A DNA stretch of 64,000 bases from an uncultured Brachyspira sp. GTDB lineage: Bacteria; Spirochaetota; Brachyspiria; Brachyspirales; Brachyspiraceae. Position 1 is the first letter of the stretch. Every line of letters begins with the position of its first letter. The DNA lies in NCBI RefSeq assembly GCF_944388875.1, contig NZ_CALXKQ010000003.1, positions 1-64,000 on the forward strand, given 5' to 3'. The notes under the pieces were generated by a model. The model was not told the DNA's origin and searched no databases. It worked only from the letters and a program-made list of their open reading frames with translations. A program made the translations under genes and the position numbers. Shown one piece after another: positions 2,834 to 61,782 of the stretch.

Positions 2834-4747
2834 TTATTTATTATCATCAACAACTTCATAATCAGCATCAACTACGCCGTCATCTTTTCTGCCTGATGAT
2901 TCTCCGCCTGATGATGACTGACTGCCTGCATCAGCTTGTCCCTGCTGTGCACCTGCTTGTTTATAAAGTGCCTCAGAAGCTTTGCTCCATGCTGCTTGTA
3001 AATCGTCTGTAGCTCTTTTAATACTGTCTGTATTATTAGATTCTACTGCTGATTTCAATGAAGCCATTTTTGACTCAATTTCTGATTTGTCAGATGGCTG
3101 TAATTTATCGCCGTTTTCTTTTAATAATTTTTCTGTCTGATAAATCATGTGGTCAGCATTGTTTTTAGCTTCAACTTCTTCTTTTTTCTTTTTATCTTCT
3201 TCAGCATGTTTTTCAGCATCCTGAACCATTCTGTTTATTTCATCTTCGCTTAATCCGCTTGAAGATTCTATTCTTATTTTTTGTTCTTTACCAGTACCCA
3301 AATCTTTAGCTGTAACATGTACTATACCGTTTGCGTCTATATCAAATGATACTTCTATTTGAGGAACTCCTCTTGGTGCAGGAGGTATGCCTACCAAGTC
3401 AAATCTTCCAAGCTCTCTGTTGTCATTAGCCATTTTTCTTTCACCTTGTAATACTCTGATAGTTACAGATGACTGATTGTCTGCTGCTGTAGAGAATACT
3501 TGTTTTTTGTTTGTAGGTATAGTAGTGTTTCTGTTGATTAAAACAGTCATTACTGAACCTTCTGTTTCAATACCAAGTGAAAGCGGAGTAACGTCAAGAA
3601 GAAGTACATCTTTAACATCACCTTTGATAATACCGCCTTGTACAGCTGCTCCCATTGCTACTGCTTCATCTGGGTTTACGCTTTTGTTTGGTTCTTTATT
3701 AAATATGTTTTTAACTGTTTCCTGAACCATAGGTATTCTTGTAGAACCTCCTACAAGTATTACCTCATCTATATCGCCTATAGAAAGTCCTGCATCTTTC
3801 AATGCTTTTTCACATGGGATGCGTGTTTTTTCTACCAAATCTCTGATTAAATCTTCAAATTTAGCTCTTGTCAAAGATACATTCAAGTGTTTAGGACCTG
3901 ATGCATCTGCTGTAAGATAAGGCAAGTTAATATCTGTTTGTAATGAGCTTGAAAGTTCTTTTTTAGCTTTCTCGCCTGCTTCTTTTAATCTTTGTAAAGC
4001 CATTTTATCATTATTCAAATCAACACCTGTATCTTTTTTGAACTCATCTATAAGCCAATTAATTATAGCTTGGTCAAAGTCATCACCGCCCAAGTGAGTA
4101 TCTCCGTTTGTACTTTTTACTTCAAATACTCCGTCAGCCAATTCAAGTATAGATATATCGAAAGTACCGCCGCCCAAGTCATAAACTGCGATTTTTTCAT
4201 CTTTCTTTTTTTCCATACCATAAGCTAATGCTGCTGCTGTAGGTTCATTTATTATTCTTAATACATTAAGTCCAGCAATACGTCCTGCATCTTTAGTAGA
4301 CTGTCTTTGGCTGTCATTAAAGTATGCAGGTACTGTAATAATAGCGTCAGTTACTGTTTCGCCTAAATACTCTTCTGCTGTTTGTTTCATCTTTTGAAGT
4401 ATTCTAGCACTTATCTCTTGAGGAGTGAAATTTCCTTCCAAAGTTTTGATTTTTACTTTACCACCGTCTTCTATAACTGTATAAGGCATTCTAGCACGTT
4501 CTTCTGTTACTTCAGCATAAGTGTTTCCCATAAAACGTTTAATAGAAAATATTGTATTTTCTGGGTTAGTTACCATTTGGTTTTTAGCAGGCTGTCCTAC
4601 TAATATTTCGCCTTTATTTGTAAATGCTACTATAGAAGGTGTTGTTCTGTTTCCCTCTGCATTTGTTATTACTACAGGTTTTCCGCCTTCCATTACTGAT
4701 ACGCATGAATTTGTTGTTCCTAAATCTATTCCAATTATTTTACTCAT
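2834..4747 (-). CDS. dnaK: Molecular chaperone DnaK (Hsp70)
   Basis: 637 residues, full length. The N-terminal ATPase starts with the phosphate-binding loop [24 protein letters not shown], the adenosine-binding segment VGGSTRIP and [11 protein letters not shown] are all present. The substrate-binding beta domain, lid helices and a Gly/Ser/Gln-rich tail ending in DADYEVVDD follow, as in canonical DnaK. It acts in the cytosol as an ATP-driven chaperone with GrpE as exchange factor and a DnaJ partner. AAGGAG lies upstream of ATG 4747. Gene order is grpE, a 69-codon gene, then dnaK. dnaJ does not follow: ankyrin genes do. Confidence 0.99.
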
Positions 4748-4825: not shown

Positions 4826-5035
4826 TTAGTCTTTTGTCAGAACACTAACAACATATTCTGTATGACCATTACCCAAATGTGAAGTAGTAAGGTCAACATT
4901 AATTACTTCTTTGTCTTTAATGTGATTGTTTATCGCATCTGTTAAATCTTGTAATACACCATTTATATGCTGTATACTTTCCTTCTTATCTGCCTTAGGC
5001 TCATAATAAGCCCTAAAAAGTTGAATATGTGCCAT
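4826..5035 (-). CDS. Small conserved-looking protein between grpE and dnaK
   Basis: 69 residues beginning MAHIQLFRAYYEPK and ending VVSVLTKD. I do not recognise the family. It is acidic/basic mixed and soluble, with no membrane segment, no Cys and no zinc motif. The centre (ESIQHINGVLQDLTDAINNH) looks helical. The end (EVINVDLTTSHLGNGHTEYVVSVL) looks like beta strands, a pattern that would fit a small dimeric alpha/beta fold. AGGAG lies just upstream of ATG 5035. The gap to grpE is 27 bp and to dnaK 78 bp, so it is almost surely in the heat-shock operon. A role alongside the DnaK machine is inference from position only. Confidence 0.8.
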   Translation of the reverse strand: MAHIQLFRAYYEPKADKKESIQHINGVLQDLTDAINNHIKDKEVINVDLTTSHLGNGHTEYVVSVLTKD

Positions 5036-5062: not shown

Positions 5063-5674
5063 TTATTGGGCAGCTTTCGGTTTTCCTACTACTACCTTAG
5101 CTGTTCTCAAAAGTTCATCATTCAATTTATACCCTTTAGCATAAATCTCAACAACCTGCTCTTTATCTATATCAGGAACTTCCATCATAGTTAATGCCTC
5201 ATGTACATTAGGATCAAACTCATCGCCTTTTTCAAGCTCTATTTCAGAAACTCCATGATCATGCATAAAGTCTATAAATTGTTTATGTATAAGTTCTATT
5301 CCTTTGTAATATTCAGTACCTTGAATATTAGCATCCTGCTCTCCTGCTTTTAATGCTCTCTCAAAATTATCCATAAATGTTAAAAGGGATAATAACAAAT
5401 CTTTATTCGCTCTCTTTATACCATCTATTTTTTCTTTAGCTGTTCTTTTTCTGATATTTTCAGCCTCAGCCATAGCATACATATATTTATTTTTCATATC
5501 AGAAGCTTCATTTTCTAACTCTTCTATTCTTTTCTTTAAAGCTGTTATTTCATCCTCTTCATTATTAGTTTTATTCTCTACATCTTCATTTGAAGTATCT
5601 ATATCTTTTTCATTGTTATTAATCTCTTCATTACTGTTACCGCTTTCATTTGTTTCTTTTATTTCTTCTTCCAT
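5063..5674 (-). CDS. grpE: Nucleotide exchange factor GrpE
   Basis: 203 residues. An acidic, Asn/Glu-rich disordered N-terminus (1-45) is followed by a long coiled coil (about 45-115; ITALKKRIEELENEASDMKNK and AEAENIRKRTAKE). The C-terminal beta domain includes GVSEIELEKGDEFDPNVHEA and ends with KGYKLNDELLRTAKVVV, the usual GrpE signature. It releases ADP from DnaK. It is the first gene of the operon: AAGGAG precedes ATG 5674, and a sigma-54-type site lies 48 bp before the start. Confidence 0.97.
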   Translation of the reverse strand: MEEEIKETNESGNSNEEINNNEKDIDTSNEDVENKTNNEEDEITALKKRIEELENEASDMKNKYMYAMAEAENIRKRTAKEKIDGIKRANKDLLLSLLTFMDNFERALKAGEQDANIQGTEYYKGIELIHKQFIDFMHDHGVSEIELEKGDEFDPNVHEALTMMEVPDIDKEQVVEIYAKGYKLNDELLRTAKVVVGKPKAAQ

Positions 5675-5721: not shown

Positions 5722-5738
5722 TGCAAAAAACATGCCAA
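5722..5738 (-). promoter_or_regulatory. Sigma-54-type -24/-12 promoter upstream of grpE
   Basis: On the minus strand the 17-mer TTGGCATGTTTTTTGCA has GG and GC dinucleotides exactly 10 nt apart. It fits YTGGCACG-N4-TTGCW with one difference (TGGCAT for TGGCAC). The expected start of transcription is near 5711, giving a leader of about 37 nt to ATG 5674. No CIRCE operator (TTAGCACTC-N9-GAGTGCTAA) is visible. Use by RpoN is inferred from sequence alone; an NtrC-type activator gene is present elsewhere in the window (48412-49755). Confidence 0.6.
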
Positions 5739-5944
5739 TTATTTTTTTAATAATACTATAAATTTAGCCTATATTAATATATTATAATAAAAATATGCTG
5801 TAAAATATATATGTAATTTTGAAAAAACGATATTTATGTATAGTTTTTATACATCAAAAATAATATATTTTGTATAATTTTAATACATTTAATTAGGACT
5901 TTAACACATTTAAGATATAAATTATAAAAAACCGTTAAAAAAGC

Positions 5945-5973
5945 ATCACCCTGAGAAAACACTGCAGGGTGAT
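5945..5973 (-). terminator. Rho-independent terminator of dnaA
   Basis: The arms ATCACCCTG (5945-5953) and CAGGGTGAT (5965-5973) form a perfect 9-bp stem with an 11-nt loop. Reading the minus strand, the stem is followed by GCTTTTTT. It lies 92 bp past the dnaA stop. The rest of 5739-6064 is AT-rich with no gene I can support. Confidence 0.8.
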
Positions 5974-42621: not shown

Positions 42622-44781
42622 TTAGTTTCTATTTCTTTGGGCTTTTTTTAGAATACCTGCAATTTTTCTAAGTTTAAGATTCTCTGCTATATCTAAAGCA
42701 GTATCTCCATGGTCATCTTCTATATTTACATCGGCTCCTTTTTCTACTAGAAATTTAACATATGGTTCAGCAAACCTTGACCCTGATGATGCACAAGCCC
42801 AAATTAAAGAAGTGTATCCTTCATAATCTTGAGCATTAATATCTGCACCTTTTTCTAATAAAACTTCAGCTAATTTTATGCGATATTCCTGAAAACTTTT
42901 ATTATTAAAATTACCTTCACCCATACCAAGATATATCAAAGGAGTATATTGGTATTTATTCTTTATGTTTACATCAGCACCTTGCTCTATTAAAAAATTA
43001 GCTATTTCAAAGTCTAATATATCAATACTGCCTTCATCTGAAGTATCAAGAGTTTTATTTAAAGCTGTGTCTCCTTCATTATCTTGGGCATTTATATTAG
43101 CATTTTTTGAAACTAAATATTTTATTACATCTATATTTCTTTCATGACTATACTCACATGCTGATATTAAAGCAGTACTTCCTCCTTTATAAAAGTTTAC
43201 ATCAGCACCGTTTTCAACTAATAATTTTACTGTTTCTAAATTATTTACACCATATATTAAGGCTGTATTTCCATAATTATCGAAAGCATTTATATCAGCA
43301 CCTTTTTGTATTAGAAGTTCTATCACTTTTATATTATGAAGTTTGGAAGCATACATTAAAGGTGTCTCTCCATGATTATTTTTTACATTTATATCAGCAC
43401 CGTTATTTATTAAATATTCTGCAACAGATGAATTTTCATCATATCTAGATTCAATATGTTCATAATCTAATGAGAGTAATAGTGGAGTTACTACTGAGCT
43501 ATATTCAGAATGTGTTTTGGCATTTACATCGGCACCTTTTTCAACTAAAAATTTAACCATATCATAGTCATTTCTTAAAGCTGCTATCATTAAAGGAGTA
43601 TAATCATAATCTTCAGGATAATGCTCCCCAGCCTTTATTCTTGATTCTAAGTCAAAACCATTTTCTACTAATACTTTAAACATTTCTCTATTTTGTGCCA
43701 ATGCTGTTGAAGCTCTATAAGATTTATTAAGAAGTGATGCTCCATCATTGTCTTTAGTATTTACATCAGCACCGTATTTTATTAATAAATTAAATATTTT
43801 TTTAGCATTTTCTAGCATTTCTTCTTTTCCATAATGATCATAGCAAATATTATAATATAATACAGTGTTTCCATCATTGTCTTTAGTATTTATATTGGCA
43901 CCATTTTCTAATAAAAATTTAACCATTTCATAGTCTCCGCTTAAAGCAGCGTTCATTAATGCTGTACAGCCGTATTCATCTTGTGCGTTTATATTGGCAC
44001 CTTGTTGTATAAGTAATTTTGAAATATCAAATTTTCCATAATTATTAGCAATTGTTAAAGCTGTTTTGTTTTCATTATTTGCTGTATTAGGATTGGCACC
44101 TTTATCAAGCAAATATTTAACCATATCATAGTCATTTCTTAAAGCTGCTATCATTAAAGGAGTATAATCATAATCAGATATACCCGTTTTTATTCCTGAC
44201 TCTAAATCAAAACCATTTTCAACTAATATTTTAAACATTTCTTTATTTTTATCAAAAGATTCTGAAATTCTATAGGATACATCAAGGAGAGATGCTCCAT
44301 CATTGTCTTTAGTATTTACATCAGCACCGTATTTTATTAATAAATTAAGTATTTTTATAGCATTTTCTGTTTCATTTTCTTGTCCGAAACTATTATGCTC
44401 AATACTATAATATAATGCAGTTTCTCCTGTTATATCTCTAATGTTTACATCGGCACCATTTTTTAATAAAACTTCAACCATTTCATAATTTGTATTTCTA
44501 GCAGTATACATTAATGCTGTAGCACCTGCTTTATCTTGAATATTGACATCAGTACCTTCTTCTATTAGCAGTTTTGCTATATCATCATATCCGCTTACAG
44601 AAGCATTTATTAAAGCCGTTCTATTATAAGAATCTAATGCATTACAGTTTGCACCTTGCTCTAAATATGATTTAACTTTTTTTATATTATTATCTTCTAC
44701 AGCGGAAAATAACGATTCATCTAAAGTTTTAGAATATAAAAGAATATTAAACAATAATAATATAATAAATACTTTTTTCAT
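42622..44781 (-). CDS. Exported ankyrin-repeat protein, 719 residues
   Basis: A signal peptide (MKKVFIILLLFNILLYSKT) makes it periplasmic or surface-exposed. The rest (20-715) is about 18 ankyrin units (GADVNTKDNDGASLL, DYTPLMIAALRNDYDMVKYL, GADINVKNNHGETPLMYAS). Residues 139-230 and 324-417 are near copies of each other, each with a longer unit of the form REMFKVLVENGFDLES, so the gene grew by duplication of a multi-unit block. It is unlike the 99-bp arrays at 1-2714 in sequence. The gap to dus (44782-45003) holds the dus promoter. Confidence 0.9.
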   Translation of the reverse strand: MKKVFIILLLFNILLYSKTLDESLFSAVEDNNIKKVKSYLEQGANCNALDSYNRTALINASVSGYDDIAKLLIEEGTDVNIQDKAGATALMYTARNTNYEMVEVLLKNGADVNIRDITGETALYYSIEHNSFGQENETENAIKILNLLIKYGADVNTKDNDGASLLDVSYRISESFDKNKEMFKILVENGFDLESGIKTGISDYDYTPLMIAALRNDYDMVKYLLDKGANPNTANNENKTALTIANNYGKFDISKLLIQQGANINAQDEYGCTALMNAALSGDYEMVKFLLENGANINTKDNDGNTVLYYNICYDHYGKEEMLENAKKIFNLLIKYGADVNTKDNDGASLLNKSYRASTALAQNREMFKVLVENGFDLESRIKAGEHYPEDYDYTPLMIAALRNDYDMVKFLVEKGADVNAKTHSEYSSVVTPLLLSLDYEHIESRYDENSSVAEYLINNGADINVKNNHGETPLMYASKLHNIKVIELLIQKGADINAFDNYGNTALIYGVNNLETVKLLVENGADVNFYKGGSTALISACEYSHERNIDVIKYLVSKNANINAQDNEGDTALNKTLDTSDEGSIDILDFEIANFLIEQGADVNIKNKYQYTPLIYLGMGEGNFNNKSFQEYRIKLAEVLLEKGADINAQDYEGYTSLIWACASSGSRFAEPYVKFLVEKGADVNIEDDHGDTALDIAENLKLRKIAGILKKAQRNRN

Positions 44782-48411: not shown

Positions 48412-49755
48412 TCAATCTTTAATATCTTCTTTTAATTTTCTATAAAGCGTAGCTCTTTCTATACCTAATATTTTAGCAACCTGTGCTTTATTAAAATTGT
48501 TTCGACCTAATAAATAATTTATATACATCTTTTCAAGCTCTTCCAAAGTAACATTTCCTTCTACCACAAAATCATCATCATTATTTCCTTTCAATGCCCA
48601 GTCAGGTATATTACTCTCGTCAATTTTACCATCCCTACTCATAACAACCATAGTTTCTATTGTGTTTCTAAGCTCTCTTACATTTCCTTCCCATTGTAAT
48701 GATGATAATATCTTATAAACTTTTTTATCAATAGAATTTATCTCTATGGAATGAACCTTTGAAAACTCTTTAATGAAATTATCTATCAAAAGAGGTATAT
48801 CTTCTCTTCTTTCTCTAAGCGGAGGCATTTCTATCTTTATAACATTAAGCCTATAATATAAATCCTCTCTAAACTTACCTTCTTTAATTTCTTCAGATAA
48901 TTTTTTATTTGTAGCAGCAATTACTCTTATATCAACATCAATAGGAGTATTAGAACCTACCCTCTCAATAACTCTCTCTTCAAGAACTCTTAAAAGTTTA
49001 ACCTGCACAGCCTGATTAATTTCACCTATCTCATCAAGAAATATTGTACCCTTATTAGCAGCCTCAAATCTTCCAATCTTTTTATCTATAGCTCCTGTAA
49101 AAGCTCCCTTTTCATGTCCGAATAATTCGCTTTCAAGCACACCTTCAGAAAGTGCCGCACAGTTTACTGTAATATAAGGCTGTTTTGCTCTGTCTGACAT
49201 TTGATGAATTGCACTTGCTACTAATTCCTTACCTGTTCCGCTTTCGCCTTCTATCAATACTGTAGCTTTAGTTCTTGCCACCTGCTTTACAGCTTCATAA
49301 ACCTTAAGAATCTTAGGGCTATGACCTATCATTCCGTAAAAACTTTCATGGTAATCTACACGCTTTTCAAGTGTTTCATTTGTCTTTTTTATATTTTTAC
49401 TTTCTAATGCTCTAGCTATTATCAAAAGCATTTTATCGAGATTGAAAGGCTTTGTCATAAAATCATAAGCACCTAATCTCATCATTTCCACAGCAGTTTC
49501 CACATTGCCGTGTCCTGTTAAAACTATTACAGGTATATGCTTATCGAACTCCAAAATTTCTTTTAAAAACTCTTCGCCAGTTTTTTCAGGCATTTTTAAA
49601 TCTGTTATAACTAAATCTATTCCGCCCTTATAAACTGTTTCTATTCCTTTTTCTCCATTTTCTGCAGTTACTACTTCATAACCTTCAAACTCTAATGATT
49701 TTTTAATACCATCTCTTATATTTTTTTCATCGTCTATTACTAATATCTTAGGCAT
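48412..49755 (-). CDS. NtrC-family sigma-54-dependent response regulator
   Basis: 447 residues. The receiver domain (1-120) has the phosphorylated Asp52 in [13 protein letters not shown]. The AAA+ domain has Walker [10 protein letters not shown], the sigma-54 contact loop [15 protein letters not shown], Walker [11 protein letters not shown] and RREDIPLLI. The C-terminal Fis-type helix-turn-helix is [20 protein letters not shown]. It activates RpoN promoters after phosphorylation. Its start overlaps the end of the histidine kinase gene by 8 bp, so the two are a pair. The signal sensed is unknown. Confidence 0.95.
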
Positions 49756-50941
49756 AATCTAATAAATCCGTTTTTAAAAATTTTTGATTTTCCTGCTGCA
49801 ATGGAAGTTTTATTATAAACTCGCTTCCCTTGCCGTATTCGCTTTCTATTGAAACATTGCCATTATGGGCTTCTATTATACGAACTACATTTGTAAGTCC
49901 TAATCCTGTACCATGTCTTTTGGTTGTGAAATAAGGCTCAAATATTTTATTTAAAGTTTCATCTTCCATTCCAATTCCTGTATCTTTTATACTTATAACA
50001 GCATAATTATCAATAGTCTTCAATTTGATATAAATCTCTTTTTTCTTATCAGCAGAATTTTCGCTCATAGCATCTATTGCATTTTGTATTATATTAATTA
50101 ATGACTGTTTTATGTATTTAGCATCTAATTTTAATATTAAATTATCCTTATCAAATTTTATATCTATATTAACATTATTCTTTTCTATTTCATATTTCAA
50201 AAATGAAACTGTAGAAAGAATAAGCTCATTTATATTAACATCTTCAATATCCAATTCTAATTTGCGTACAGAAAATAAAAATGAATTAATAGTATCTTCA
50301 AGCCTAGCTATTTCTTCTTTGATTATATCAGAATATTCTCTAAAATCCTTATAACATTGACAGTCATTGTCCATATTCTTTTTTATTATTTTTTCTATAA
50401 GCTGAACATATATTGAAATAGAACCTAAAGGATTTTTTATCTCATGTGCAACGCCTGCTGCTAATGTTGTAAGAGATGCTAACTGTTCTGCCCTTTTAAG
50501 TTTATGAGTGCTTTCATAAGTTTTTGTTATATCAAATGCTTTTATAAGAGTTCCTATTATTCTTCCGCTGTCCCCTATAGGAAGTATATTTATCTGAAGT
50601 ATTCTTTCATTGTCATTATCTTTTAATAATTTAGTTTCTGAATCATTGATGTTTATAAGCTCTAATATTGTTTTTCCTATATCATTAGTATGCATGTATT
50701 TTGAAAGAAATTTGCCTTCAGAATTTCTAGGTATTGAAAATAAGAAACAAGCCTTTTTATTTATCTCCTGTATTATGCCTTTATTATCTATTGCAATTAT
50801 ACCTTCTTCAAGATTTTCTATGATTATGTTTTGAGAGTATAAAAGAGTGGTAAGTCTTTTAAATACCTTTTTCTTTTCAATGTCAGAAACTTTATCGAAA
50901 TTCTGCAGAATTTTATCAAAAAACTGATTAGTCCTATTCAT
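49748..50941 (-). CDS. PAS-containing sensor histidine kinase (NtrB/AtoS-like)
   Basis: 397 residues with no membrane segment, so cytosolic. A PAS domain (about 35-140; NLEEGIIAIDNKGIIQEIN) comes first. HisKA has His166 in AAGVAHEIKNPLG. HATPase_c has an N box INIIQNAIDAM, a G1 box DTGIGM, and GTGLGLTNV. CQCY in the middle of HisKA is an unusual Cys pair. It phosphorylates the NtrC-type regulator encoded downstream. It is the first gene of the operon. Confidence 0.93.
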   Translation of the reverse strand: MNRTNQFFDKILQNFDKVSDIEKKKVFKRLTTLLYSQNIIIENLEEGIIAIDNKGIIQEINKKACFLFSIPRNSEGKFLSKYMHTNDIGKTILELININDSETKLLKDNDNERILQINILPIGDSGRIIGTLIKAFDITKTYESTHKLKRAEQLASLTTLAAGVAHEIKNPLGSISIYVQLIEKIIKKNMDNDCQCYKDFREYSDIIKEEIARLEDTINSFLFSVRKLELDIEDVNINELILSTVSFLKYEIEKNNVNIDIKFDKDNLILKLDAKYIKQSLINIIQNAIDAMSENSADKKKEIYIKLKTIDNYAVISIKDTGIGMEDETLNKIFEPYFTTKRHGTGLGLTNVVRIIEAHNGNVSIESEYGKGSEFIIKLPLQQENQKFLKTDLLDYA

Positions 50942-60915: not shown

Positions 60916-61782
60916 ATGAGTATTACAAATATATCAAATAAAGATAAGGCATATATTTTAAATCAGGCATTGCCTTATATACAAAAATACCAGCATAAAA
61001 CTATCGTTGTAAAATACGGCGGAAGTGTTATGGAAAACAATGAATTGAAAGAATCTGTTATGAGCGATATTGCTCTGCTATCAACATTAGGAATAAGAGT
61101 AATAGTTGTTCATGGCGGCGGAAAAGAAATAACAGAAATGCTAAAAAGAGTCAGTATAGAATCAAAGTTTATAAACGGGCTTAGATATACTGATAAAGAA
61201 ACGGCTGAAATAGTAAAAATGGTGCTTGCTGGAAAAGTAAATAAGGAACTTGTAGGGATACTTAACAGTTGCGGAGGCAAATCCCTTGGTATATGCGGTA
61301 TAGATGGAAATATGTTTAAAATAAAAAAATATGAATCTAATGATGATTTAGGTTTTGTAGGAGATGTTGAAGAAGTAGACTCTCATTTATTAGAAACTAT
61401 TATAACGAATAAATATACACCGATAGTTGCAACTATTGGATGCGACAGTGAAGGCAATGTATACAATATAAATGCTGATACAGCTGCTGCCAAAATAGCT
61501 GAAAGCCTTAAAGCCGAAACTTTAATGTTTATGACTGATACACCTGGATTATTGAAAGATAAGGATGATGAATCAACTTTAATACAAAGAATAAAAGTTG
61601 ATGATTTAGATAAATTGTTAAAAGACGGAACTATTTCAGGAGGTATGATACCTAAAGTTAAACATTGTATTAATGCTGTACAAAACGGTGTAAAAAAAGT
61701 ATTTATAATGGATGGAAGAGTGCCTCATTCTATGATAATACAAATGTTTACCGATGAAGGTATAGGTACAATGTTCTATTAA
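60916..61782 (+). CDS. argB: Acetylglutamate kinase
   Basis: 288 residues from ATG 60916 (MSITNISNKDKAYIL), 16 bp after argJ, with AGGG upstream; an in-frame GTG at 60883 lies inside argJ. Motifs are VVKYGGSVMEN, VVHGGGKEITEML, NINADTAAAKIAE and the C-terminal ISGGMIPKVKHC. An extended N-terminal helix (KAYILNQALPYIQKY) is of the kind found in hexameric, arginine-inhibited enzymes, so feedback by arginine is plausible. Confidence 0.97.
   Translation: MSITNISNKDKAYILNQALPYIQKYQHKTIVVKYGGSVMENNELKESVMSDIALLSTLGIRVIVVHGGGKEITEMLKRVSIESKFINGLRYTDKETAEIVKMVLAGKVNKELVGILNSCGGKSLGICGIDGNMFKIKKYESNDDLGFVGDVEEVDSHLLETIITNKYTPIVATIGCDSEGNVYNINADTAAAKIAESLKAETLMFMTDTPGLLKDKDDESTLIQRIKVDDLDKLLKDGTISGGMIPKVKHCINAVQNGVKKVFIMDGRVPHSMIIQMFTDEGIGTMFY

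Follow-up and report, generated by a model that had tools for sequence, protein, structure and literature searches.

The Rrp2/Hk2–RpoN system of the spirochaete Borrelia combines RpoN with only one NtrC-type activator and its partner PAS kinase, and its main known output is RpoS together with its regulon. Single heat-shock genes under sigma-54 are known already, as is control of a heat-shock lon gene by a two-component system. In Myxococcus xanthus, the two-component phosphorelay HsfA/HsfB activates the heat-shock gene lonD (Ueki & Inouye 2002, as cited in PMC9548883), and in E. coli the small heat-shock gene ibpB has a sigma-54 promoter (Kuczynska-Wisnik 2001, as cited in PMC8155344). Moreover, according to a 2025 survey, chaperone genes of Bacteroidota and Planctomycetota show sigma-54 enrichment, and the grpE of two Bacteroidota species is described there as sigma-54-dependent (PMC12316311). 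Our literature search found no paper on sigma-54/RpoN, HrcA or dnaK heat shock in Brachyspira.

The locus analyzed here lies in a 64-kb window (the whole stretch of DNA that was analyzed) of a Brachyspira genome, in which a first-pass annotation had pointed to a GG-N10-GC element, one base from the RpoN consensus, on the minus strand in front of grpE and dnaK. The operon and its immediate surroundings comprise the following features.

2834–4747, minus strand: dnaK, 637 aa (Pfam HSP70, 898 bits)
4826–5035, minus strand: 69-aa ORF between grpE and dnaK
5063–5674, minus strand: grpE, 203 aa, first gene downstream of the site (Pfam GrpE, 162 bits)
5722–5738, minus strand: predicted sigma-54 -24/-12 core promoter TTGGCATGTTTTTTGCA, GG/GC unchanged in 27/27 grpE loci
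5937–5973, minus strand: intrinsic terminator ATCACCCTG...CAGGGTGAT followed by a T-run, conserved, parting grpE from the dnaA-like gene (named by inspection) that lies upstream

The element is indeed present: TTGGCATGTTTTTTGCA, read on the minus strand from 5738 to 5722, has its GG at 5736–5735 and its GC at 5724–5723 with N10 between them, and departs at one base from TGGCACG-N4-TTGCA, which makes it a near-consensus -24/-12 sigma-54 element. The predicted +1 for grpE falls at about 5711, leaving a 37-nt leader that contains AAGGAG ahead of the ATG at 5674. Given that the 69-aa ORF is on the same strand as grpE and dnaK and between them, it is probably co-transcribed with both. We regard TTGGCATGTTTTTTGCA as very probably the core of a sigma-54 promoter for grpE, the 69-aa ORF and dnaK, and as belonging to a small proteostasis regulon.

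A bare GG-N10-GC is frequent by chance, and TGG-N10-GC has 43 matches in the window. A genome scan for such sites, as the first-pass annotation had advised, gave a single match to the strict pattern TTGGCAYR-N4-TTGCWT in the window and two genome-wide; the reversed control had no match. The core is found upstream of grpE at all 25 Brachyspira grpE loci (recovered among 26 genomes) and at the grpE of both genomes of a sister genus in the same family, counts that are not independent since the sampled species are related. When these 27 grpE promoters were aligned at the site, the columns TTGGCA, TT, TTGC and the last T proved invariant, and the flanking columns upstream had drifted to AT background; the comparison across Brachyspira that had been proposed thus reveals no loss of the GG/GC pair. 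It is mainly this conservation (25/25 plus 2/2) that rules out a chance origin of the grpE site. Sigma-70-like pairs around grpE are no commoner than in shuffled sequence (30 found versus 30.3 expected between 3000 and 8000); the best one nearby is TTTACA-17-TATATT at 5804–5776. The grpE gene could have a basal sigma-70 promoter as well.

Upstream of the sigma-54 sites we found a 17-bp palindrome, TGTATA-N5-TATACA. A two-fold architecture of 17 bp is typical of NtrC-type sites. At grpE the palindrome occurs twice, so that the enhancer-like repeats for which a search had been suggested do exist.

5837–5853, minus strand: predicted enhancer (UAS) copy 1, TGTATAAAAACTATACA, 18.4 bits, second-best in the 64-kb window, centered at about -134 from the predicted +1
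5871–5887, minus strand: predicted enhancer (UAS) copy 2, TGTATTAAAATTATACA, 18.7 bits, best in the 64-kb window

The two palindromes of grpE keep a spacing of 34 bp at every one of the 25 Brachyspira loci (32 bp in the sister genus), and lie anywhere from 105 to 344 bp from the promoter; a pair with fixed 34-bp spacing at a variable distance from the promoter is as expected for enhancers. Using a matrix trained on grpE only, with a threshold of at least 10 bits, we found sites upstream of 22/22 clpB, 22/23 hsp20 and 17/18 lon genes, compared with 1–3% of dinucleotide shuffles and 0/24 groES regions used as controls. The copies at clpB and hsp20 tend to precede the core by about 32, 95 and 128 bp, near multiples of three helical turns. 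A further enhancer-like match in the window, at 61666, lies within an argB-like ORF and was discarded as chance.

The first-pass annotation had made its proposal depend on an rpoN gene, and RpoN (PF04552) is present in 26/26 genomes. The RpoN box of our genome is intact (SRRTVAKYRK), and its rpoN adjoins hpf-, ptsN- and hprK-like genes, as judged by inspection of the neighbors. The activator that had been put forward and the gene next to it are encoded in the window.

48412–49755, minus strand: NtrC-type response regulator, 447 aa, with REC, AAA+ (GAFTGA) and Fis-type HTH domains (Pfam), the sole sigma-54 activator
49748–50941, minus strand: histidine kinase, PAS-HisKA-HATPase (Pfam), with no membrane segment and an 8-bp overlap with the activator gene

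A PF00158 search returned one true sigma-54 activator per genome in 26/26 genomes (243–249 bits), which bears out the choice of the protein at 48412–49755; the runners-up, at or below 35 bits, are other AAA+ proteins including ClpB, identified from length and position. Within the genus the activator keeps 83% identity or more, and it falls below the curated NCBIfam cut-offs for AtoC (463/714 bits), ntrC (431/559) and ZraR (387/760). Its contact loop reads GAFTGA in our genome and three divergent ones, and GSFTGA in the other 22 (L156–L181). As it is the only sigma-54 activator in the genome, binding of the palindromes may be assigned to it by elimination. The kinase gene overlaps or abuts the activator gene in 26/26 genomes, and its product would be the partner of the activator.

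Beyond the earlier annotation, we found that clpB, hsp20 and lon have the same promoter and enhancer as grpE. The pattern TGGYAYR-N4-TTGCAT occurs four times and no more in our own genome, ahead of grpE, lon (C9:64279), clpB (C14:542) and the hsp20 pair (C17:26609). Across 26 genomes, the strict 18-mer has 60 matches and its reversed control none, and all but one of the strict matches read precede grpE, clpB, hsp20 or lon, counting two to three at contig ends for which the downstream gene was inferred (clpB in the case of L151). The matches not at grpE are followed after 64–131 nt by clpB, lon or the first of the two tandem hsp20 genes, the one exception (L144) being at an 83-codon ORF in the divergent genome G019. 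The additional relaxed matches that we retrieved in the genus are within open reading frames, and the sigma-54-like matches L144, L304–L314 and L316–L317, inside open reading frames, were set aside as chance. Strict matches in two genomes outside the family (G027 and G028) precede other genes. By the strict pattern, the regulon thus appears to consist of protein-quality-control genes only, namely grpE-dnaK, clpB and hsp20, joined by lon in most species; such whole-genome statements come from pattern searches, and degenerate sigma-54 sites lie outside the reach of the strict pattern.

Membership varies between genomes. The hsp20 site is found in 24/24 genomes, with one changed outer base in the G019 copy. 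At clpB the site was seen directly in 20 genomes and at contig ends in 2 more; three divergent genomes (G001, G003 and G019) have clpB without it, and G023 is undecidable. At lon it is present in 18/25, so that regulon membership differs by the loss or lack of the clpB site in three divergent genomes and of the lon site in seven. In the clade formed by G011–G014 and G017, lon carries TTGACA...TATAAT instead; at these lon loci (L188–L191 and L193) a sigma-70-like promoter, TTGACAAAATAATTAGTTTGTTTATAAT, replaces the sigma-54 site, in an apparent natural promoter swap. By comparison, groES has a conserved sigma-70 promoter, TTGACTTTT...TATAGAAT, throughout, and groESL was rejected as a member of the regulon, having neither a conserved sigma-54 site nor an enhancer. 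As a separate observation, the start of our own contig C14 (L015/L154, positions 1–80), upstream of clpB, carries the short tandem repeat AGAGTTT.

The neighborhood of grpE holds another element of its own. Between the dnaA-like gene and grpE, on the minus strand from 6045 to 5937, we noted an unlisted, probable small RNA of about 75 nt, with a strong sigma-70 promoter (TTGACT-16-TATAAT), a 5′ hairpin and a terminator hairpin. Its predicted single-stranded segment CAUAAACCUCCUUAUC contains ACCUCCUUA, which is the anti-Shine-Dalgarno tail of 16S rRNA. The element recurs in the same context at 22/25 Brachyspira loci, in an altered context in L063, and also at both sister-genus loci; the terminator stems vary compensatorily, the fold has z = -3.3, and Rfam gave no match for the putative RNA. 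Elsewhere in the window, highly repetitive proteins that look ankyrin-repeat-like by inspection are encoded at 2094–2714 and 42622–44781, on the minus strand.

We then considered whether the promoter could be read differently. Control of these genes by HrcA/CIRCE or by an RpoH-type factor, with the sigma-54-like sequence being incidental, would be in line with the usual arrangement in other bacteria, and HrcA does occur in 30/110 genomes of our phylum sample. It is nevertheless very unlikely here: HrcA was found neither in our own genome nor in any of the 14 Brachyspira (0/14) and 2 sister-genus (0/2) genomes searched, CIRCE was found neither in the window nor upstream of groES or, as had been noted before, of grpE, and chance cannot yield conservation in 27/27 loci along with paired enhancers. 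With both HrcA and CIRCE missing from these searches, an HrcA/CIRCE heat-shock regulon was rejected. Harder still to credit is a sigma-70 promoter in which TTGGCA would serve as the -35 and a TATAAG-like sequence as the -10, the GG/GC spacing being a coincidence. TTGGCA does resemble TTGACA, and a TATA-rich stretch follows it in our genome, but the columns that would form the -10 (21–26 from the start of the site) are unconserved while TTGC at -12 is invariant in 27/27, the -35/-10 spacing would be 15, and clpB, hsp20 and lon are preceded by the same GG-N10-GC element. TTGGCA was therefore rejected as a sigma-70 -35 because no conserved -10 accompanies it.

A different kind of alternative retains the sigma-54 regulon and changes the signal, which would be redox, nutrient, envelope or oxygen stress rather than heat, chaperones being induced within that response. 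A soluble kinase with a PAS domain would be open to many cytoplasmic signals, groES, a classic heat-shock gene, is outside the regulon, and the closest named models (AtoC/AtoS, NtrC and ZraR) are all far under their cut-offs. On the other hand, the four target operons all consist of genes for general protein repair, and we saw no metabolic or envelope gene with a strict site upstream. We hold a non-heat signal to be possible but somewhat doubtful. The preferred reading, that the signal to the sigma-54 regulon would be heat or protein damage, is drawn from the nature of the target genes.

Based on these observations, we propose a model in which RpoN holoenzyme would be poised at the GG/GC element as a closed complex, the soluble PAS kinase (49748–50941) would sense cytoplasmic stress and phosphorylate the NtrC-type regulator (48412–49755), and the regulator would bind the paired 17-bp palindromes 100–340 bp upstream, loop to the promoter and open the RpoN complex via its AAA+ domain. 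The sequence-level basis of this model lies in the predicted promoter and enhancers, RpoN, the single activator, the adjacent kinase, and the absence of HrcA and CIRCE from the searches described above. The RpoN control of grpE-dnaK first suggested from a single site is supported, at the level of sequence, by the conserved GG/GC, by rpoN in 26/26 genomes and by the sole activator. In Brachyspira, sigma-54 and one activator thus appear to turn on grpE-dnaK, clpB, Hsp20 and usually Lon, in place of the usual heat-shock switches. We lean, with modest confidence, toward a broader view in which sigma-54 would be a dedicated proteostasis sigma factor in Brachyspira, with a conserved regulon made up entirely of chaperone and protease genes, the single activator acting as the heat-shock factor, and stepwise growth from grpE-dnaK, shared with the sister genus, to hsp20, clpB and lon.

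Placing the DnaK system under sigma-54 would be an unusual design, because such promoters are silent without their activator. If the model is true, a kinase would exert tight on/off control over these genes, as opposed to their relief from a repressor or the freeing of a sigma factor by DnaK. A genus with animal gut pathogens among its members would then provide a working model for heat-shock responses of the two-component type, built from one sigma factor, one activator, one kinase and four operons. Moreover, it makes testable how bacteria replace HrcA/CIRCE, as well as how a regulon gains or loses genes via promoter conversion, given that 18 genomes have a sigma-54 site before lon and a clade of five has a sigma-70-like promoter there.

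Among the known systems, the Brachyspira one resembles Borrelia Rrp2/Hk2 in its RpoN, lone NtrC-type activator and PAS kinase. It resembles enterobacterial nitrogen control by NtrB/NtrC in having a REC/AAA+/Fis-type HTH regulator with a putative soluble PAS kinase partner, and a -24/-12 promoter preceded by paired palindromic enhancers of 17 bp. Unlike NtrB/NtrC, it is predicted to act on chaperone and protease genes rather than nitrogen genes, its palindrome is TGTATA-N5-TATACA, and the genome has one activator only, which scores below the ntrC, atoC and zraR cut-offs. With M. xanthus HsfA/HsfB it would share two-component control of a lon-type heat-shock protease (PMC9548883); the title cited there documents one target gene, whereas in Brachyspira the core chaperone genes share the promoter. 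At E. coli ibpB (as cited in PMC8155344), sigma-54 adds to sigma-32 control, whereas for the Brachyspira chaperones our search for HrcA/CIRCE found no other control. The 2025 survey is a broad statistical one dealing in predicted clusters, and its available text has no mention of Brachyspira and, in contrast to the present analysis, no description of a single activator, an enhancer or genus-wide conservation (PMC12316311). Taken together, what is new in our judgement is a compact regulon in which one activator is associated with four proteostasis operons and which is conserved genus-wide.
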